A DNA stretch of 64,000 nt from the NCBI RefSeq assembly GCF_037975245.1, contig NC_092563.1, positions 29,787,960 to 29,851,959 of the forward strand. The letters run 5' to 3'. The DNA comes from Apostichopus japonicus (taxonomy: Eukaryota > Echinodermata > Holothuroidea > Aspidochirotida > Stichopodidae). Below the pieces are notes generated by a model. The model ran no database searches. It was not told the DNA's origin and was given only the letters and a program-made list of their open reading frames with translations. The position numbers and the translations under genes are program-made. Of the stretch, positions 4,939 to 54,093 are shown piece by piece (within the stretch, counting starts at the first letter, position 1; every line of letters begins with the position of its first letter).

Positions 4939-5780
4939 GGGACGTAGCCAGTATGTAGCACTGTAGGCCCGGGCCTACACTTTTTTGGGCCAAGTTATCT
5001 TTTTTTTTAAACACCCATAATTCAAATCCATAGAGCTTGCTGGACGAGTTTAAGATTCTAGACAGGAAAAACTAATGAAATGAACGTAGCAAGAATATGG
5101 CTAAATTAGGTAACCTATTCTTCTGTCATCTAAGCTGTCATTTCTATCGCGTGCCGTTTCATTCAACACTCTACCCGCGCAAAAGACAAAGATCCGATCT
5201 TGTCAGTTTTTTAACATCTAGTTAGGCTAAGAACCCGTTTACGCAGATAATATTTCAGTTGAGAAACATTCCACAGTCAAATAAGCCTATCGTTGATTAA
5301 CAGACTTTATAGAGCTGCAGCACTTTGTTGCCTGTTGTTGTCACGATCGGCGTTCCAAGTTCCAAAACAGCCTTTTCGATAAACATTTACTAGCTACAGT
5401 TGTATCAAAGACAATTACTGGCTATAGTTGTATCAAAGACATTTCTGGCCTATCTTTGTATCTACAAGTATCAGAAGTTGAAAAGTAAGACTACTCTTTA
5501 CATGTACCTTGCTAATTTTAAATACATTATGTAGTATTGAATTACGTACTATTTTAACTAGTTTGTGTTTTGGGTTTAAAAGTGATATTGAATGAGGTGT
5601 CTCAAGTTAGCAAGAGGCCAGTGGAACCAGAATGAACACTCGGGAAGGGCCGTTTCCGGCCATCTGGGGGGGGGGGGGTTGTTAAACCAAAACTTTTCTT
5701 GTACGCTCCGAGGCCAACCGATGGCGGGGCTCCGCTCAGATAGTCGTGCCTACAACTTTGAAAATCCTGGCTACGCCCTT
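4939..5780. mobile_element. hAT-like nonautonomous DNA transposon
   Basis: The left end gggacgtagccag and the inverted right end ctggctacgccctt form terminal inverted repeats. The flanks cattaaca and gattaaca agree at 7 of 8 bases, as expected for an 8-bp hAT target duplication. No transposase was recognised. The right part (5640-5750: ccggccatctgggggg, gctccgctcagatagt) resembles the element at 55841-56217. Confidence 0.7.
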
Positions 5781-34397: not shown

Positions 34398-34976
34398 TGT
34401 GAAGTTCAACCACCTGTCTGGTATACTTGAAACATGCATGCATGCCCTGTCTTCGAATTGGTGCAATCACTTGTTGTCCTCTAAGATCAAATTATTTTAT
34501 TTCTTTAAATATTTTCCAATTTGTAAATAAAATAAAGTTGCAATCGCTTCTTATTATTAGTTGCTTTTTCATTTAGTTTTGTCTACAACAATTTCAAATA
34601 AATGAGACTTTTTATTTTTAATAAAGCCAGGCTATCAAGTATCAATGTAAAGCCGCATGATTACAGTTGTATGACAATGAGATGGGGTTACTTATCTCTT
34701 TCAATTAGGAGGCGCATCTGTCTGACACTTTTTTTTGTTCAAGCAGCCGGTACCCATAATAGTTGACACAACTTTGAGCAAACAATTATCCTAACACTAT
34801 CAGACCCTTGTTATAATGTCAATGAACCCTGCCAGGGGTAGCAGGAAGTTCTAGGAACAAACAAGTCCAAATAGCTCCAATGAAGTTTTGGAACAAGTTC
34901 CTCAACAAAATCAATAGAGCAGTTCTTACATATTACCCTTCACCAGTTAACCACAAGGAAATTTATTCTATGCTTA

Positions 34977-36711
34977 CTGCCCAGTATAGCCCTCACCCTA
35001 CAGCCCGGTATGGCCCTCACCGTACAGCCCGATATAGCCCTCACCCTACAGCCCAGTAAAGCCCTCATCTTACAGCCCAGTATAGCCCTCCTCTTGCTGT
35101 CTGGTATAGCCCTCACCCTACAGCCCAGTATAGCCCTCATCTTGCTGTCTGGTATAGCCCTCACCCTACAGCCCGGTAAAGCCCTCATCCTACAGCCCGG
35201 TATAGCCCTCACCCTACAGCCCGATATAGCCCTCACCCTACAGCCCGGTATAGCCCTCACCCTACAGCCCAGTATAGCCCTCACCATACAGCCCGTTCTC
35301 ACCCTCAAACCTGGTATAGCCCTCACCCTCAAGCCCGGTATAGCCCTCACCCTCAAGCCCGGTATAGCCCTCACCCTACAGCCCGGTATAGCCCTCACCC
35401 TCAAGCCTGGTATAGCCTTCACCCTATAGCCCTCACCCTACAGCCAGGTATAGCCCTCACCCTACAGCCCAGTATAGCCCTCATCTTGCTGTCTGGTATA
35501 GCCCTCACCCTACAGCCCGGTAAAGCCCTCATTCTACAGCCCGGTATAGCCCTCACCCTACAGCCCGATATAGCCCTCACCCTACAGCCCGATATAGCCC
35601 TTACCCTACAGCCTGTTATAGCCCTCACCCTACAGCCCGGTATAGCCCTCACCCTACAGCCCGGTATAGCCCTCACCATACAGCCTGTTATAGCCCTCAC
35701 CCTACAGCCCGGTATAGCCCTCACCCTACAGCCCGGTATAGCCCTCACCCTACAGCCTGTTATAGCCCTCACCCTACAGCCCGGTATAGCCCTCACCCTA
35801 CAGCCCGGTATAGCCCTCACCATACAGCCCGTTCTCACCCTCAAACCCGGTATAGCCCTCACCCTACAGCCCGGTATGGCCCTCACCGTACAGCCCGATA
35901 TAGCCCTCACCCTACAGCCCAGTAAAGCCCTCATCTTACAGCCCAGTATAGCCCTCCTCTTGCTGTCTGGTATAGCCCTCACCCTACAGCCCAGTATAGC
36001 CCTCATCTTGCTGTCTGGTATAGCCCTCACCCTACAGCCCGGTAAAGCCCTCATCCTACAGCCCGGTATAGCCCTCACCCTACAGCCCGATATAGCCCTC
36101 ACCCTACAGCCCGGTATAGCCCTCACCCTACAGCCCAGTATAGCCCTCACCATACAGCCCGTTCTCACCCTCAAACCTGGTATAGCCCTCACCCTCAAGC
36201 CCGGTATAGCCCTCACCCTCAAGCCCGGTATAGCCCTCACCCTACAGCCCGGTATAGCCCTCACCCTCAAGCCTGGTATAGCCCTCACCCTACAGCCAGG
36301 TAGAGCCCTCACCCTACAGCCCAGTATAGCCCTCATCTTGCTGTCTGGAATAGCCCTCACCCTACAGCCCGGTAAAGCCCTCATCCTACAGCCCGGTATA
36401 GCCCTCATCCTACAGCCCGGTATAACCCTTACCCTACAGCCCGATATAGCCCTCACCCTACAGCCCGGTATAGCCCTCACCCTACAGCCCTCACCCTACA
36501 GCCCGGTCTCACCCTCAAGCCCAGTATAGCCCTCACCCTCAAGCCCGGTATAGCCCTCACCCTACAGCCCGGTATAGCCTTCACCGTATAACCCTCACCC
36601 TACAGCCCGGTACAGCCCTCACCCTACAGCCCGGTACAGCCCTCACCCTACAGCCCTGTATAGCCCTCACCCTACAGCCCGGTATAGCCCTCACCATACA
36701 GCCCAGTCTAT
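34977..36711. repeat. 24-bp minisatellite, about 72 units
   Basis: Consensus tatagccctcaccctacagc plus ccgg. Variants include tatggccctcaccgtacag, ctcctcttgctgtctgg and shortened gttctcaccctcaaacc. A block at about 34994-35430 recurs at 35860-36300 (offset 866 bp), so the array also has a higher-order duplication. Because 24 is a multiple of 3 and the unit lacks stops in some frames, long open frames appear on both strands: (G)IALTLQP forward, RVRAIPGC reverse. These are not convincing genes. Confidence 0.95.
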
Positions 36712-39674: not shown

Positions 39675-42600
39675 CTGAAACAAAATCAAGTCACTTACAA
39701 TTTGAAACACAGTGAGAGGATTTAATAAGGTATATAAATTTGATTAGATTTGAAGATGGAGTAGTAACTTTCTTCCAAACCTGACACATCTTATTATTCT
39801 CAAAAGTATAGAATGAACCAGTTTTTAATAAGTGGCATCACTGCCATCATCTTCACCATCATCACAATTATCATCATGTCTTTAATCACCACAATTCCAC
39901 CAATGCAATCATAGTCAACAACATTATTATGCACAAATGTATTTAAACCTTTAAACTGTTAATCATGAAGTAAATTTTCATCAACAAAATTAGTTTGTGT
40001 GATGCAAAATAGTAGTGCCTTTTTTATCTATTCGATATTCCTGAATTATCCCGAAAATGGAAACCATTTTCGGTGCTAAAAAAATCTCATCAGCGGAAAT
40101 AATGTCACTCATTAGTTGCTCAGTTTTGTACTACTAATACAATAGGTTGTTGTTCTCTCTTCTTTGTGTTTGCCTTGAGGGCTCTTCATTATCAACATGA
40201 GACCCTATAGTATTCCAGTACTTTGAAATTTACTTGCAAACAATACAAACCAGTAATCCTGTGCTTATTGTAATTGTATATGCCACAATAATCCATTTGG
40301 TGGGATATAAACTGTGCATGACTTTAATGCACATGTCACAGCATTAGGAAGGCATAATTTACCGAAGGTCAGTCACATGGTTGAGAGATCAATTGGTTTG
40401 AAGGATGTGTTGCCAGGCAACTTGGATGCTAAAAGCATCACAATCATTACTACAACTTGGAAATACATTGAAATCATTGTATTTAAAATGCTAATAATTG
40501 GCAGCCGACAGACTTCATATATATAAATGAATGAATATTTGTGATTACGTTAGTAAAGTATTCAAAAGATTCTACTTACACCTTCAAAAGTTTCTGAACT
40601 TAGCTCGATCTTTGTATTGTTGATCATGGAAATTGTAAATAAATGCTGCAGAAGAACAAAAATGATTACATGTCAACATCAGCTAGAAATTATGACATGT
40701 CATTTATATATGGTTTGGCTCTGAAATGATGTGATATCTTAATAACTTTGTTGCAAACAACCATCTTATGTAAAGAATACTCCATGACCCCCTTACAATC
40801 TCCAAAACAAATAATACAAATTATTAATATTTACATTGATGGGATAAACTTTTAAGTTTTGTTACCCACAATGGACTGCATTGGGAAGTCTGTGGTTGAG
40901 AGAATGACTTAAATTCGCTGGACACATACATTGAACATCTACACCACTGTTACAATGTGCAGCAGGGTGGGGGGAGGGGTCTACTTGCTTCATTTATGAA
41001 GAGAACTTTGCAGTCACCCAGGGTAGATTGTAGCCTCTGCACAAAACCAGATGGTATAGTTTTTGACTTTCATTAACCTGATTTCGGAGGTTTGCTGAAG
41101 TTCCAAGCAACATTAAAGGAATTCACAGATTCACTGAAAACTTCATGTTTAACGCCATGTGCTCTTCATGCAAGAAGCTCTTTAGTTACAAGTAAATTTC
41201 GCACACATTGCATTGCCCAATTCTCTACAATCACTCCCCTGCCTCCTTCTGTACCCACCCCCTCTTATTCCCAACCTACCTGCCCTCCTACCTCACCTAC
41301 CTTTCAGTCCCCCTCTTCCACCCAATGCTTAATTACTCCTCTGTCACCTAATAAACAGTAGTCACCCCCTCTTATTCTCAACCTACCTGCCCTCCTACCT
41401 CACCTACCTTCAGTCCCCCTCTTCCACCCAATGCTTATTACTCCTCTGTCACCTAGAAACAGTAGTCACCCCCCCCCTCTTATTCCCAACCTACCTGCCC
41501 TCCTACCTCACCTACCTTTCAGTCCCCTTCTTCCACCCAATGCTTAATTACTCATCTGTCACCTAGTAAACAGTAGTCACCCCCCCTCTTATTCCCAACC
41601 TACCTGCCCTCCTACCTTTCAGTCCCCCTCTTCCACCCAATGCTTAATTACTCATCTGTCACCTAGTAAACAGTAGTCACCCCCCCCCCCCTCTTATTCC
41701 CAACCTACCTGCCCTCCTACCTCACCTACCTTTCAGTCCCCCTCTTCCACCCAATGCTTAATTACTCATCTGTCACCTAGTAAACAGTAGTCACCCCCCC
41801 CCCCTCTTATTCCCAACCTACCTGCCCTCCTATCTCACCTACCTTTCAGTCCCCCTCTTCCACCCAATGCTTAATTACTCCTCTGTCACCTAGTAAACAG
41901 TAGTCACCCCCTCTTATTCCCAACCTACCTGCCCTCCTACCTCACCAACCTTTCAGTCCCCCTCTTCCACCCAATGCTTAACTACTCCTCTGTCACCTAG
42001 TAAACAGTAGTCACCTTTCTTCAATTCTTTACTAACCTTGTGATGTGGTCTATTTCCTGTTGTTTGGTATTTGCCAGCAGCTACCTCTGCAATATCTATC
42101 ACCTGAACTGTAACCAAAGTAACAATCACAAGTAGTAAGCACATGAGGAGTATCAAAGTTGAAGGACATCCTACAAAGACTAAGGTGTCGAAATTTTAGG
42201 AATATTCTTTTCTTCATTTCTTTTTCAATCTTGTAAATATTGTTTGTCATGACTGGAAGTTTGGTTTTATTGCTTCACATAGTTGTCAAACATCATTTGT
42301 TTTGAGAGTAATACAGATCACTAACAACATTTTGTGTTCAAGTATTAATGTAAAAATAAACACTAAATATTAATACAACCGAATAACGTGATTTGCTCTA
42401 ATCTCCAGTCTTCTTACACCGAGACTAACTGTGATCATGACAGCGTTAATACATCTAGGGAGGTATCAGGTGACCCTTCAACAGGAATAGATACTACACA
42501 TGAGACTACATATGGTTCTTTTACTATGTATTATATACTACATTACAACACATACATTTACTATGTATCATACTACATTACTAAACATGATACTTATATT

Positions 42601-45600: not shown

Positions 45601-48600
45601 TGTAAGAACATGTACGCAGCGTTTGTGCAAACTTGTGCGCCAACACTGCCAATAATAATGGGACTGCCAGCATTACAGCCATATATATCCTAAAAAATCT
45701 AGGTTAGACGTGATATATTTAGACCTGCAGAAGGCATTTGACACGGTACCTCATAGAAGACTGTTAACAAAAATCAGGGCACATAGAATAGATATCATAT
45801 TGAACTGGATTGAGGAATGGCTACGATATTGGAAGCAGCGAGTAGGTTTGAATGGGAAAGAATCCAGATGGACGGAGGTGACCCGCTCGGCGGTACAAGG
45901 GTCACTATTAGGACCTGTTTGTTCCACAATGTACATGAATGACTTACAGATAGGTGCAGTCAGACGTAAGTCCGCAGATGACACACAAGTAATAAGCCCA
46001 ATAACAAATGAGAGAGGGCAGTATAACAGCTACAGCAAGATTTAGACATGTTGATGATAATGAACCAAAAAGTGGCGAACGATATTTAATGTTGGGAAAT
46101 GTTCGGTATTGATTGCATTTTGGAGATGGTAATCCAAAATTCAAATATGAAATGGGAGGAAAGGATTTGAAAGAACAGCAGACAGGAAAAGGATTTATGA
46201 GTGTATGTGAAATACATCAAAGAGATTCAGTAGGCAGTGTGCCGAATTGACAAAGAAAGCCAATAGAGTTATTGGCATTATAATAATAATAATAAATGAG
46301 ACTTATATAGCCCCAAATCAGTAGACAAAAGTCACTGCTCAAGGCGCTTTACAAAGAATGCAAATTAATTATCAAAGGGAACTTTACCAATTTTGATGGC
46401 AAGTTGTATTGAACCTGTACAAGTCCCTTGTAAGGCCACTCCTGGATTATTGCATACAGGTTTGGAAGCCATATTGAAACTAGAAAGCCAGTTGGCTTTG
46501 TGAATTCCTTGCCATACAATTTGCTCAAAATTACAAATAACTATCTGACTCACTAATGTAGAGCAAGGGAGTTAAAGTTGTCCAAGAATTAAGTGAGAAC
46601 CAGAAAAAAATTCTGATAATTTCAGCTCTTATTTGTAGCACTCCCTTTGTGGGCATCAACCTTTTAATCAACTGGTAAAGATTTTACATAAAAATTTTTT
46701 ATCCAAAACGTTTCAATATCCAGAAAGAACAGTCTTCTTATTGTGAAATATAGAAACATAGATGTATGAATAAAATCAACTCTGCCTCTGTGCAATCATC
46801 CCTTAAATAATTGTTATTAATTAATGAGAGCTCTACCCCCCCCCCCCCACATTGTTTAGACACTGTGAAATATTTCACTACTTATGCCACGCAAAAGTCA
46901 TCTAGTATAAATCATAGAGAAAATGACCAATTTTGAGTCCATTTGAGATAACCTGTTGACCCCTTTAAAGCCAAATTTTTCCACAATTTTAGATAACCTT
47001 GAAGCTCAGAGGTTTAAAGTTGACAAGGGCCTGTTGATTGTGTTAAAGTGAATGTGTTAAAATATTATCAACAAACTTGAAGCAGATTTCATATCCTGGA
47101 TGACTTTATGTTTTGTTGAAGATTTATAGAGCTCCTTTGCCTCACTAAACTGAACTGAATTTTGACCAAACTATAAAAATCATAGCATTGGAGAAGTCAC
47201 AGGTTAATTGTAACTTTAAGTTTGAGCTACCATGTATTAAAGGTTTTCAGACTTTGACAACTGTTGACCTCAGTTGACCTTTGACCTCTACCAATTCCAA
47301 TAGGATTCTGGCACTCACCAAGCTGGATCCACCTACAAGTATGAAGTTCAAGAAAGATGTACCACTTGAGTTATCATTTTTACAAGATTTTCAGATTTGG
47401 CCTAAATGTTGACCACAAATGACCTTTGATCTCCACCAATTTCAATACGGTTCTTGCTGGTTCAAGCTTGATCTGCATACCAAGTATTAAGTTCAACAAA
47501 GATGTAGTTTTTGAGTTTTACAAAGTTTTCAGATTTTGACCTCTGTTTACCCCAAATGACCATTGAACTTGACAGAAAGGAGTATGGTTCTTGTGCTCAA
47601 TAAGACAGATCCACATACTACGTATTAAATTAATCCACCTTGAACTTTTTGAGTTACGGTGTTTACAAGCGTCACACCATCGCATCGCATAGAATCCTTC
47701 TGCCTCCGACAAAGAGGATATTAGCTTAATAGGAGTACAACACAGAATGATGAGACAAATAAAATAGTAGCAATGGAAAGCAAAGTCTTTGAGGAGAGAA
47801 TTAAGGCTGATGACAAATTGAACGATTAGAAATAAAGGAGGAAACTATATTCAACTGTGTTTGGAAAATATAGAAGAGACTATATCAGAGAATGTAGTAA
47901 CAGCCCCAACACTCAACATATTTAAGAACAGGCTGATGGAACGCAGGATCAATAGACCTGCTATTCCTCAGAGCCATTCTCTCCGGCACTCTTCTGAGCC
48001 CCCCTCCCCCCCCCATCCACTTCCCTCTCTCTTCCTTCTCCTGCAAAGACATGAACTGTTGGAAATTGAAATGGTTGACATCTTTCTCTGACTTACTGCT
48101 GCAAATTTATGGAGAAGTTTTTAACAACAAATTTGTACTAAAAGTTGTACATTTGATCGTTGACCCTGTGACCTCAGTTGCCGTGGTAAATACCTCATGC
48201 TATTTATCCTCGAAGTAGGAATCGAAAGAGAAAGTCAAAGTGGTTCTAAACTGCTTTCAGACAGTTGCGTGGTATAATTCTTGGGGTTGGCTGGCTGGAA
48301 GGGGAATAGGCTAAAAAACTTGGATATTCTGCTCTTTCTCACGTTTCTGGTTACGTGAGAAAGATAAGGCGTGTGATACTGCCCAATACCGAAATGCGCC
48401 CTCCACCACAACTCGGTCGATCATGGATATGCGTGAGATAAAAAGATGGAACAACTTGTACTGAAATTTTTCATGACAAGCAGACGACTCATGGTAAGAA
48501 GTGTGAGTATGTTTTGAAACTGATAGAAGAAAAGTTAAATTGGAGTGACAGCAAAGTGAACACAAAGAAGATAGAATACCTCCTGACTTCTTGAAGCTGG

Positions 48601-51600
48601 AAGAGTCTATGAGACAAGGCAATCAATAAAACTTTCTCACATTCTTCATAAATTAACCAAAAAAGTTGTAAAGACAAAGATAGAAATATGTGGCTAGAGC
48701 GGGATTTGAAGCAGTGACCCCAGGATTTGAAACTCAACACAAAGCTCACAACACAAAACTCAACACCCTCTACCCGAGTGACCAATTAAGCATGTAGTTG
48801 TTGGCAATTCCTATAAAGCCATCTCTTTGATTGCGAGGAGGGGGGGGGGGGGGAAGGGTGACAGTCCAAAGCCAAAGTACATCTGAAGTCACTGGTTCAA
48901 AAACTATTCTAGCCAAAAACCTCTTTAAAGTTCCTCATCAGTTTTGAGTTGTTTATTTACATAAAAATCAATGTAGAATAGTGAAACAGCATTTAAATAT
49001 TGTAAGCAACAGGTAATTGCCCTGATATTCCTTCACTACCATGACTTGGGTTTTGATTGGCTGAATGAAGCAGAGATAAAAGCAATGTGAGTGTCGATTC
49101 ACAGGACAAACAGACAAGCAAACAGACAAACAGAAAACACCACAAGAGAAAGTGGGAGAGGTAGGGAGTGCTCTGGTCCCTCTCGCAACCAATGAGGCTG
49201 CTGAAAATGGCAAATCAAGTTAGTGGGTAAATCCCCATAAATGAAAAATTCTGGTTACCCACTGCTGGAAAAAAAACCACATCCTTTTCACCATAGAGCC
49301 AACACCACACTCAAACACACAAATGCATGGAATCTTTCATATTGGTGAATGTGAGTTTTCATTTATCTAACTTAGGACCATCAAGAGATCCCATATGTTC
49401 CTTCCTTTCCCTTCTTCTTAACATTACTCCCCACCCCCCCCCCCCCCCCTGTAGCCTAACCTGGCTATGAGCCTGCCCTCACTCCCTCCCTATTATAGAT
49501 AAAATACAGGTTTGTTAGATCTTTATCTGCATATCTGACCATCACAATGACTCAATTAGGTTATCAGCTCAATTAGTAGACATCAAAGGGCTACAAGGTG
49601 CGCCTAAATTAAAATTATAAGCCACTCAGCTACAATTTAAACTGTTTCTGTTTCTTCTGCCTTACACCTCCAAACACCACCACCCCCTCCCATTTCCTTT
49701 CTGAGTTTACTTCTTGTTAGAATTATCTTGACAATATTATCATTCTCTTACCTTTCATTGATCTGTTAGATAGCTTTCCACCCTTGACCATAAAGTTAAG
49801 TCTCTGTTGTTTTATCAACTCCATCACATCTGCTGTTAACTGCTGTTTGAGATCTCTACAATGGAAGGGGTAAAAAATTAAAAATTTAGAGTTTGCAAGG
49901 GTACTTGGTTTCATTAAGCACAGCTTATAATTTCATTTTCATTTCATTTGTTTGTTTCTTCACAACATAAATACAGAGAAGTTAGCTAAGTGACAGAACA
50001 TATCAACAACACGGAAAATTGTGAAAGGAAGCACTCCAAAAAACCCAGACGGCTTGTCTAATAGAGCGCTCCCATAAGTAATAAAGAGAACAATACAAGA
50101 AAACAGTAACACTTATATCCACCCACACACCAATCAATAATGATTAGTAGTAGTGATCTATTATAAACTTAAGGTTTACATTACATTAAGCTATGGCAGG
50201 TTTTTACATAAGGGCACCCTTAGTTCAACTGGCTTAAGCTAACTGAAACTGTAGTCTGCCAATTTGGAATATCTCCCTGGTGACGATAGGGGATTTCCCG
50301 GTTGATTATCGTCATTGGGCGCTTCATGGCGTACTTTTCATTGGTGACTTGATTGATGAAAACGGACATTTTCTTTGATTCACTTTATTGAGAAGTATCC
50401 CATCAAGACCAATTTTTTGGAATATCATGGCCTTATTCGGTCTGTAAAAACCAGGCTGCGAAGTATTAAAGATGCCTGTAATGTTCAGTATCTTTTTGTG
50501 GCCCTGTTAATAGTTTCATAAATATACTATGGAATATGGGTAGTTTTGATTGTAAATATGTTTACAATCATTGGCTGTATTCTTCATACCGCCCGTGTAA
50601 ATCTTACCTCAAATGGACAGAATCGTTCAGTATTACTAGTGCGGATTGGGCCTTGCATTGTACAGTCCCTTTTAACTCTAGTAGTGATAATTACATTCGC
50701 TGGTTTCAGTATCGTATTCTTCATAGAATCATCCCGACAAATTATTATTTGCAAAAGATTGGTATTGTTGCATCAAATATGTGCACTTTTTGCCTTCTTA
50801 ATCTCAAACCAATAGAACATTTGTTTTATCATTGTGATTTTGTTCAGAGAATTTGGAATTTCTTTGAAAACCTTTTCATTAATGTTGATATTAAAATTCA
50901 TTTGGATATTTCTGAAGTTTTGTTTGGGGGCGATTTTTCATGTGTCCTCAATTCAATGCTCATTTTGATAAAATGTTACATTTTTAGTTGTAAGAAAATC
51001 AAGATTCTTCCCACAGTGATTGGCACTGTGAAATATCTGAAGGTTATTTTATGATACAAAAAATGATTTTCAGAAGAATATGGATGAGTTGGTATGGGAG
51101 AAGTATTGGCTCCCTTGGGTACATTGACTTCAATCGTGAGAGTTTCGTTTATTATTATTATTATTATTATTATTGTGAGATGACTATTCTTTTCACTTAT
51201 TGAATTCATCCTTTATTGTGTATTGTATGATTTTCAAGAGCAATAAAAAAAATCATAAAAAAAAAAACTGGGTTACAGCATAAATTGTATCACAGCACAT
51301 TTACTAGTTGTTGTAGCTTAGAATATAATTCTACCCTCATTAATGGCCGACTTTACCTTCACTCAGAACAGGTGAAAGTGTAACTGCAGGTGAATAAAGT
51401 TATGTCGGTTATTTTCATCAAAGCTAACTCAAATCAGCTTTCACCACTGGACTGCAAAAACAATCCATAGCAGTTGAGTTATGGCAAGTTGAAGCATACA
51501 TCACACTTACAAAACAGATGGAGCTTGGCTGTTATTGTCATCAAGACTAACTCGTCTCAACTTTCTCAGCTCCTTGATGTTTGCATAGGCGAAGCGGGTC

Positions 51601-54093
51601 TGAACTTGCTGCCAAAAAGAATCCATGGATGCTGGCTTGAGAGCCAAGGCCTCCGTAATCTGTTCTTTTACCACGCTCATTACCTTTTGACGAAAACAAA
51701 ATGTGTGATAACCATAGTTAAACTGTCTTCTTCTTCTGAATATGAATACAATAGGTGTAACTCTCTTTGGCCCCTAGGAGGGGGGGGGGTCCTTCAGGGA
51801 AGGCCTTTCAGAGACAGGTTAATGTTTGAGAAAATGATTTCTTTGAGTGCCTAAGTACAAGACATAATAAGCTTACATACCTTATATAGCTAAGCTGTAT
51901 GTATGTACAGCTGAGGTTATACTGTGCCTAAGCACAAGACATAATGAGCTTACATACCTTATATAGCTAAGCTGTATGTATGTATGGCTGAGGTTATACT
52001 GTGCCTAAGTACAAGACATAATAAGCTTACATACCTTATATAGCTAAGCTGTATGTATGTATGGATGAGGTTATACAGTGCCTAAGTACAAGACATAATA
52101 AGCCTACATACTTTATATAGCTAAGCTGTGTGTATGTACAGCTGAGGTTATACTATGCCTATGTACAAGACATAATAAGCTTACTTACCTTATATAGCTA
52201 AGCTGTATGTATGTACAGCTGAGGTTATACAGTGCCTATGTACAAGACATAATAAGCCTACATACCTAATATAGCTAAGCTGTATGTATGTATGGCTGAG
52301 GACATAAAAAGCTTACATACCTTATATAGCTAAGCTGTATGTATGTACGGCTGAGGTTATACAGTGCCTATGTACAAGACATAATAAGCCTACATACCTA
52401 ATATAGCTAAGCTGTATGTATGTATGGCTGAGGATATAATAAGCTTACATACCTTGGGAAAGTCAACATGACAAGCCTTCATTTCTTTCCAGGTCTTGTG
52501 GAATAGTTTGATACAGTGACAGAAGAATTCCTCAAAACTGTCTTCCATAGCAAAGAACATTGGATGATAGCTTGTGCTCACAGTATCAGCTAGAGAAAAT
52601 ATAACACAAATATTGGACTTATAGTATAGTATACTCTATAGTATACTCAGCAAAGATTTCTACTGGTGTATGATGCCTTATGACAGTTTGATGTAATATA
52701 TAAGTAGTGTCTTATATGTAAAATGAAGCTAGGGCTGGAATCATGTATAGACTGGAATTGGGGTTAGTTTTGCAGTAGCTAGGGGCTGGAATAATGTAAG
52801 GTGGGAGTGGGGTTAGTTTTACAGTAGCTAGGGGCTGACACCAGTGATAGAATGATTAGTTATGGTTTACTTCTTGATGTCAACAAATATAATTGTTCAA
52901 TTTCCAGTGTGTGTTCCCTTTGTTTGTGCGTTCTTTTGTTCACTAAAAGAACCTGTTACACTGAAGAAAATTTCAACCAAATTTGATATTTTTTTTTTAT
53001 ATTATTTCATTTTTGTTTTAGAGTTTTGTTTCCTTTCACCAATTTCTCTCCAGTATATGTATATATTTATTATATTCAAATGGGAAACATTCTATAAGCA
53101 TTGCACTTCTTTTTTTCTCCTTTTCCATGCATTTGTATAGCTTAATTATTGTATATAAATTATCATGATGAATTTTTTTCTTCTTCTTTGTACCTGTCAC
53201 TCTAGATTGTATTGTTTATCAAAATATTAGTTTATACTTTGTTAAACATTCATGGACTGTACACAATAGCTGGAAATAAATTGTTGTCTTTGTCATTGTC
53301 ATAAAGGAACTTAGGCAAGCAAATGTGGATCGCTTACGTTCGTCTCCAATGTTCAGAATATTGCAGAGGGCTTCGGTGAGAGAGATGCATGCCTGGGCAA
53401 ATGGACATTGGTACTCTTCGCCTCGACCAAGATTATCATGGACCATCTGAAGCAGGTAAGGCGAAAGAAAAAGAAATTAAATTTTATCCATTTTATCGAT
53501 AAGTTTTCGACCGGTGATGGGAAAAAAGGGGTTTCAAGACCATTGTTCATTTATTTAAATCCAGAAGCTTCAATCAAGGTGGTTTCAATGGTGATAATCC
53601 TAGTAAATTAATAACAAAATGTGGCTTTAAAGACACTTTCTCATTTGTGAGGTATTTTTCTTTGTTAGGGCAAAATTGCTTTCCTGTAGTGAAAAATCCT
53701 GGGGAAGGAACCTGTTGTCAAGTTACTGCCTTAGTCGTTGGATTATTTTACAGTGACATCATGTTCTTACCTGCGTGTAATTCTCTGTGTGTTGATTGGA
53801 GAGATGGGACCAACACTGTAGCCCTAAGACGCCTGGTGGTGTGGCCTCAAAGTCCTTGGCAGGGTCTGACGGGTCCTGTAGGTTTAATCAAGGAGTCCTT
53901 GTATTGCTCTATTATCAGAATGCTGAGTATAATGTTTAATCAAGGAGTCCTTGTATTGCTCTATTATGAGAATGCTGAGTGAAATGTTTACTCAAATGTT
54001 CCTCTCAAATTGTTTACAACAACTATTAGAACCTAAACAGAATAGAAAATTTAGCTGAAGTAGTTCTTTCAGAAACTTATTCGAACACATGCC

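Follow-up and report, generated by a model that had tools for sequence, protein, structure and literature searches.

Tandem copies of an authentic 5′ splice site in an ELMO-like intron of Apostichopus japonicus and exon-edge arrays elsewhere in its genome

In the genome of Apostichopus japonicus (671.6 Mb in 35 contigs), a tandem array abuts an exon of an ELMO-like gene, and the first-pass annotation of this DNA proposed that a 77-bp repeat ending exactly at the exon/intron boundary had amplified the exon's own 5′ splice site. This raises the questions of whether the copied sites are genuine copies of the donor, what they would mean for splicing, and how an array could come to include a donor. 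We addressed these questions in the 64,000-nt stretch that contains the gene (referred to as the window; GC content 37.7%) and in samples from the rest of the genome. Positions are those of the window unless a locus is given.

Copies of the exon k donor in the ELMO-like gene

The exon adjoining the array, exon k (52453..52589, minus strand; 137 nt, ending in ..GACTTTCCCAAG), has an open frame that aligned to ELMO1. The peptide encoded by exon k together with the next exon (from 51683) resembles residues 445-536 of human ELMO1 (E = 7.5e-25) and matches the Pfam family ELMO_CED12 (E = 1.5e-08). Exon k is flanked by introns of 748 bp, measured from an upstream exon end identified by eye, and 769 bp; the latter extends over 51684..52452 on the minus strand in phase 0, starting with GTATGT and ending with AAAAG. 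With the junction marked by a slash, the exon k donor reads CCCAAG/GTATGTAAGC, i.e., AAG/GTATGTAAG at 52444..52455 (minus strand), and the bases directly after the exon are GTATGTAAGCTTATTAT. The array, a block duplication within it, and its donor sites with predicted U1 pairing energies are as follows:

51846..52455, minus strand: tandem array of 610 bp, comprising eight units and a 38-bp part unit; its first three bases are the exon end
52192..52455, minus strand: block duplication of 132 bp (55+77), 52455-52324 and 52323-52192, with 3/132 differences; begins at the donor
52444..52455, minus strand: authentic 5′ splice site, AAG/GTATGTAAG; predicted −8.4 kcal/mol
52389..52400, minus strand: copy 1 (+55), TAG/GTATGTAGG; predicted −8.3 kcal/mol
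52312..52323, minus strand: copy 2 (+132), AAG/GTATGTAAG; predicted −8.4 kcal/mol
52257..52268, minus strand: copy 3 (+187), TAG/GTATGTAGG; predicted −8.3 kcal/mol
52180..52191, minus strand: copy 4 (+264), AAG/GTAAGTAAG (GTAAGT); −12.2 kcal/mol, the best predicted U1 match
52103..52114, minus strand: copy 5 (+341), AAA/GTATGTAGG, weakened by loss of the G at −1; predicted −4.2 kcal/mol
52026..52037, minus strand: copy 6 (+418), AAG/GTATGTAAG; predicted −8.4 kcal/mol
51949..51960, minus strand: copy 7 (+495), AAG/GTATGTAAG; predicted −8.4 kcal/mol
51872..51883, minus strand: copy 8 (+572), AAG/GTATGTAAG; predicted −8.4 kcal/mol

The array is real and fills 79% of the 769-bp intron in addition to the last three bases of exon k, but its unit is not uniformly 77 bp. 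Cut at the donor, the units measure, in order, 55, 77, 55, 77, 77, 77, 77, and 77 bp, followed by the 38-bp part unit; the two 55-bp units lack 22 bp that are present in the six 77-bp units. The first unit holds the donor and the last three exonic bases (AAG) and supplies exon k's own donor. The array has a GC content of 35.4%, and TRF described imperfect tandem copies with 92% matches over 51847-52301. The units differ among themselves by 1 to 10 bases in a nested block structure. Because the exon-adjacent 132 bp and the next 132 bp differ at only three positions, the authentic donor is located inside a recent block duplication. The array is confined to the intron adjoining exon k, which itself is intact, and a genome-wide DNA search with the array, using a search that skips common words, gave matches only at its own place.

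The nine donor sites have the G of their GT at 52452 (authentic), 52397, 52320, 52265, 52188, 52111, 52034, 51957, and 51880. Four of the eight copies are identical to the authentic donor over 12 nt, one is stronger, and three are altered; AAGGTATGTAAG is kept at 52320, 52034, 51957, and 51880, while AAGGTAAGTAAG is found at 52188 and TAGGTATGTAGG at 52397 and 52265. The proposal that the minus-strand unit repeats the real donor is borne out by homologous sites in all units, and its count of at least four intact sites agrees with ours, while the coordinates that it gave for these sites were off by 9-10 bases. The copy described as arguably stronger is that at +264, with −12.2 vs −8.4 kcal/mol in predicted U1 pairing. 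These predictions use an assumed U1 5′ end, and the splice-site scores use assumed donor weights. As sequence, a row of sites for U1 is present, one of them with a better predicted match than the authentic donor; a role of these sites as decoys is putative.

On the intron side, the homology is not limited to 8-9 bases around the donor but spans whole units. On the exonic side, only the last three bases (AAG) are shared with the units; the 20 exonic bases before AAG match the unit at 5 of 20 positions against a background mean of 5.5. Variable columns make up 3/9 of the donor and 12/68 of the rest of the unit (P = 0.37). Because the donor columns vary about as often as the rest, we see no sign of selection keeping or removing the copies.

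A second intron of the ELMO-like gene also contains an array (41253-42015, minus strand). A script called a donor AAG/GTGACT at the array edge at 42015; we rejected this call and read the real donor as AAG/GTTAGT, 22 bases upstream, with its G at 42036. The array begins at intron base 22, after an exon partly matched to the ELMO1 PH domain, and the bases between donor and array may represent a diverged unit. Joined to the preceding exon, this exon matched ELMO1 with E = 9e-06, with 13 residues of the exon covered, while its intron-extended peptide searched alone gave no ELMO match. The human ELMO1 PH sequence used for this comparison is presumed to be accurate. Elsewhere in the window, plus-strand open frames at 45659-46045 and 50482-51054 look, by eye, like fragments of a LINE reverse transcriptase and of its C-terminal end, and run antisense to the ELMO gene. 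At 34975-36704, a 24-bp array of ~72 units repeats a donor-like AGG/GTGAGG on the minus strand; the array-edge test described below flagged no exon at this array.

Consequences and expected use of the copies

The first-pass annotation suggested that the copies could extend exon k or be tolerated by proximity rules. Use of the copy at +55 shifts the frame, and use of any of the seven further copies leaves an in-frame stop at +60. Any copy used alone would therefore cause a frameshift or an in-frame stop and make the full protein impossible, which ruled out the copies as backup donors that preserve the protein. The same check on arrays of other genes (see below) placed an in-frame stop ahead of each intact copy listed (11, 2, 7, 2, and 3 copies in five arrays); L008:1042 is without listed copies, and L048 was left out of this check.

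Tolerance by proximity has support from published minigenes with introns over 250 nt. In PMC9225289, splicing of five minigenes that carried a pair of equal donors and introns of 365 nt was exclusively from the upstream donor, and among natural pairs of near-equal strength, the upstream site was favored in 60%. Over all natural pairs, ~60% favored the downstream site, and the stronger site was dominant in 86% of natural competitions (PMC9225289). The same study uses a limit of 250 nt for exon definition. Because exon k is 137 nt long and its introns of 748 and 769 bp exceed this limit, the first donor is expected, by analogy, to dominate, with leakage to +264 being possible. Two predictions count against a preference for the first donor: copy 4 pairs with U1 better than the authentic site does, and accessibility does not favor the latter.

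We also considered masking of the copies by hairpins. TACATACATAC, which is complementary to GTATGTA, precedes seven of the eight copies, and TACATACACAC precedes the eighth; this arm pairs with the donor in five of the eight folds computed locally. Folding of the pre-mRNA, however, predicts the same degree of pairing for the authentic donor as for the copies (predicted unpaired probability of the 9-mer, 0.0004-0.0009 for the authentic donor and 0.0000-0.0711 for the copies), and masking specific to the copies is thus not supported.

Origin of the array and exon-edge arrays in other genes

For the ELMO array, the most likely origin is a tandem duplication that spanned the exon edge and was kept without selection. 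We consider it probable that the array is an exon-edge-seeded minisatellite of the "exon stuttering" type, that its copies are unselected passengers, and that the exon-adjacent donor is still the working site; the first event at ELMO, the neutrality of the copies, and the preferential use of the first donor are what we infer. A tandem duplication with its left breakpoint at the last bases of exon k would have copied the donor together with the first part of the intron. Slippage or unequal exchange would then have extended the array to eight units and a part unit, some units would have lost 22 bp, and the 132-bp block would have been duplicated late. The donor next to the exon would have stayed the working site, and the copies could be bound by U1 but would mostly be ignored: with a short exon between long introns, the nearest donor would be paired across the exon.

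Seeding at ELMO is supported by analogy and parsimony. The ELMO donor and all units are homologous, and the donor marks the start of the block duplication. Because the unit adjoining the exon belongs to the 55-bp type, which is probably derived, the array would have turned over since its origin. Because AAG is also the donor consensus, ELMO alone cannot separate seeding from capture, i.e., from an older intronic minisatellite with a donor-like site that came to abut the exon by deletion, its first unit replacing the donor. Capture, which we regard as unlikely, would be in line with the fact that AAG alone is common to the exonic side and is required of any replacement donor, and with the unit adjoining exon k being of the rarer 55-bp type; it demands, however, a deletion whose ends were joined precisely at a functional site. 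The claim that the donor seeded the array can therefore not be proven from the three exonic bases at ELMO but gains from other arrays, which carry coding bases.

We sampled 20 stretches of ~10 kb (18 at round coordinates and two flanking the window). One of them held a gene with PF00839 repeats, which we take to be GLG1-like; its 10 exon matches, the total for the genome, fall within 21 kb. In three introns of this gene, an array is located at the donor (L008:1042, L008:5658, and L027:1678):

L008:1042-1304: array of 44-bp units; homology from intron position +3 only, the copies being without GT at the donor place
L008:5654-6130 (donor at 5658): array of 29-bp units with the donor in register
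L027:1667-2245 (donor at 1678): array with the 31-bp unit AATGTAGAGGC/GTAAGTATGCTTTATAGTTA, which includes 11 coding bases of the exon end and the donor

The exon at L008:5658 had no accepted family match and was assigned to the GLG1-like gene by position. The array at L008:1042 has no exonic base in common with its copies, as would be expected from capture. At L027, the array comprises 18.6 units according to TRF, and GT is in place in 14 of 16 further copies matched over 20 intronic bases. Two observations support the exon end at 1678: the following exon (from L008:5173) is in phase 0 with it, and a PF00839 match (E = 1.6e-10) starts within the five residues that precede this junction and extends into that exon, such that the 11 coding bases of the unit encode the start of this Pfam repeat. 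An alternative donor at 1650 (CAG/GTTGGA) scored 1.68 vs 1.61 for GGC/GTAAGT at 1678 with the assumed weights; we rejected it because joining it to the phase-0 next exon leads to an early stop and the Pfam repeat spans the 1678 junction. With coding bases of a conserved repeat inside the unit, the exon edge is the source of the array at L027.

As a further sample that depends less on arrays already known, we analyzed 60 of the 70 myosin-head matches in the genome with 300-400 bp per side; most of the ten left out are in long open frames. In this single-family sample, exon ends are predictions from the open reading frame and splice-site score, two of the 60 matches (L082 and L089) have no acceptor or exon model, and the donors of L053, L056, L066, and L091 score at or below 0. 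The modeled exons have a GC content of 44.9% and their flanks 36.2 and 35.4%. TRF placed 3 of the 60 donors (L032, L063, and L088) and 1 of the 58 placed acceptors (L086) inside arrays. In BLAST searches of the 58 modeled exons against their own flanks, six matches in four loci were above the best shuffled score, i.e., L048 and L063 on the donor side, L086 on the acceptor side, and L079, while in the distal control seven matches also passed, two of them owing to an overlap of L049 and L063. At L079, 24 nt of the exon (165-188 of 188) recur in the upstream flank (71-94) with 96% identity; this locus was left out of the count. Among the 60 matches, four donors (L032, L088, L048, and L063) and one acceptor (L086) are thus tandemly copied.

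At L063:478-919 and L048:489-783, 89 and 75 coding bases, respectively, are duplicated together with the donor and are 95-96% identical in the exonic part; both duplications look young. The exonic stretch copied is shorter at L032 (up to 7 nt) and L088 (~13 nt with mismatches). An acceptor-side counterpart is L086:1-375, in which the acceptor and 69 exon bases are tandemly triplicated in a 124-bp unit. L032, L088, and L063 lie within 16 kb (G000:C4:23.981-23.997 Mb), are collinear with the myosin profile, and probably belong to one myosin gene, six matches of which were sampled; the four donor cases are therefore not independent. Outside this gene, one donor and one acceptor are copied. These numbers are too small to establish an excess of donors over acceptors, and they leave the per-intron rate uncertain.

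The coding bases within the repeats at L027, L032, L088, L048, and L063 argue for seeding, and capture fails to explain these longer coding stretches in five arrays other than that at ELMO. The cases are found on contigs C3 (ELMO and GLG1-like), C4 (L032, L063, and L088), C13 (L048), and C19 (L086, acceptor), and clustering within a gene was seen three times, i.e., in the ELMO gene (two arrays), the GLG1-like gene (three), and the C4 myosin gene (three). Given this clustering, the positions of the duplications are not simply random, a point that weighs against the seeding explanation. In an edge test over 264 kb, 4 of 110 strand-specific array edges lay at an exon-like stretch with a donor vs an expectation of 0.8 or 1.4, depending on the version of the test; one (at a candidate exon) lay at an acceptor vs 1.2 expected. 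The window, whose choice was not blind, is part of these 264 kb, and the 200 kb of sampled stretches hold two of the four donor edges, both in L008; the script missed the array at L027:1667, which is also located in L008. A special attraction of arrays to donors was not shown by the edge test over 264 kb, and donor-grade motifs in array units were not clearly enriched (4/31 vs 2.1 expected). Tentatively, and with some doubt, we propose that tandem copying of exon edges recurs in this genome and commonly gives rise to intronic minisatellites, independently of GC content and mostly in particular genes, that donor copies outlast acceptor copies since exon definition ignores extra downstream donors, and that some genes carry rows of intact, unused donors in several introns.

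For neutral passengers, as in the seeding explanation, an alternative is that the donor row is kept as regulatory decoys that lower or tune ELMO output via stop-containing extended exons or slowed splicing. In its favor, all eight copies end or shift the frame, and, according to PMC5954066, the length of the human ABCA7 VNTR shows an inverse correlation with expression and a tight one with the skipping of exon 19. However, the donor columns are without extra conservation, a stop within some tens of intronic bases would be expected by chance, and similar arrays are present in unrelated genes, which makes this explanation improbable. An assembly artefact, i.e., misassembly or inflated copy number, is the least probable explanation: the array is known from a single assembly, but the 1 to 10 differences between units and the nested blocks are unlike a looped copy.

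Comparison with known systems

Intron gain by tandem duplication of an AGGT segment, in which the duplication reportedly creates a new intron, resembles the ELMO array in that tandem duplication copies splice-site sequence. Unlike in such intron gain, the ELMO intron pre-exists and its donor is multiplied.

In the VNTR in intron 18 of human ABCA7, as described in PMC5954066, a 25-bp array directly follows exon 18, and its first two bases are the donor GT. A copied donor one unit downstream is reported there to be in use, giving a frameshift and a stop. Two frameshifting isoforms are listed at 14 and 2 percent "respectively," which we read as cryptic acceptor and unit retention, in that order. 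As in ABCA7, the first unit of the ELMO array supplies the exon's own donor. In contrast to the ABCA7 array, with its 25-bp unit, C-rich region, variable copy number, and link to disease, the ELMO array has units of 77 and 55 bp, is AT-rich (35% GC), and is known from one assembly.

"Exon stuttering" in birds, as presented in PMC12954441, is the copying of exon edges with a splice donor or acceptor through introns, with length variation within a species as a further feature. It is reported mainly for GC-rich dot chromosomes, where 190 of 5,572 introns carry exon copies (46 of 236 introns lie elsewhere), and for GC-rich gerbil genes; the authors found no exon stuttering in other vertebrates and proposed the GC-rich setting as an association that is not strictly defining (PMC12954441). 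The open-licence literature searched contained the term only in that article, and for donor-containing minisatellites it yielded the ABCA7 and bird work, with no further case recognized. Like the imperfect tandem copies of tens to hundreds of bases in PMC12954441, the ELMO array consists of 77- and 55-bp units and is confined to the intron beside exon k, which is intact. The bird copies include part of the exon and the splice site, as do the arrays at L027, L048, L063, and L086, while at ELMO only the donor and 3 exonic nt are copied; the exonic parts of ELMO, L027, L032, and L088 (3-13 nt) are below the 20-187 bp of the PMC12954441 screen. Unlike the GC-rich setting in PMC12954441, the window (37.7% GC), the ELMO array (35.4%), and all sampled parts of the genome are AT-rich, and the cases lie on four contigs.

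The kind of array described here is already known from ABCA7 in man and exon stuttering in birds; the new element is that it occurs on four contigs of a genome that is AT-rich. Such a setting loosens the link proposed between exon stuttering and the GC-rich dot chromosomes of birds, and suggests a more general origin of intronic minisatellites, which can be counted genome-wide. With several near-identical donors lined up after a single exon, such introns are also a natural test of how the spliceosome selects one of several equivalent 5′ splice sites.
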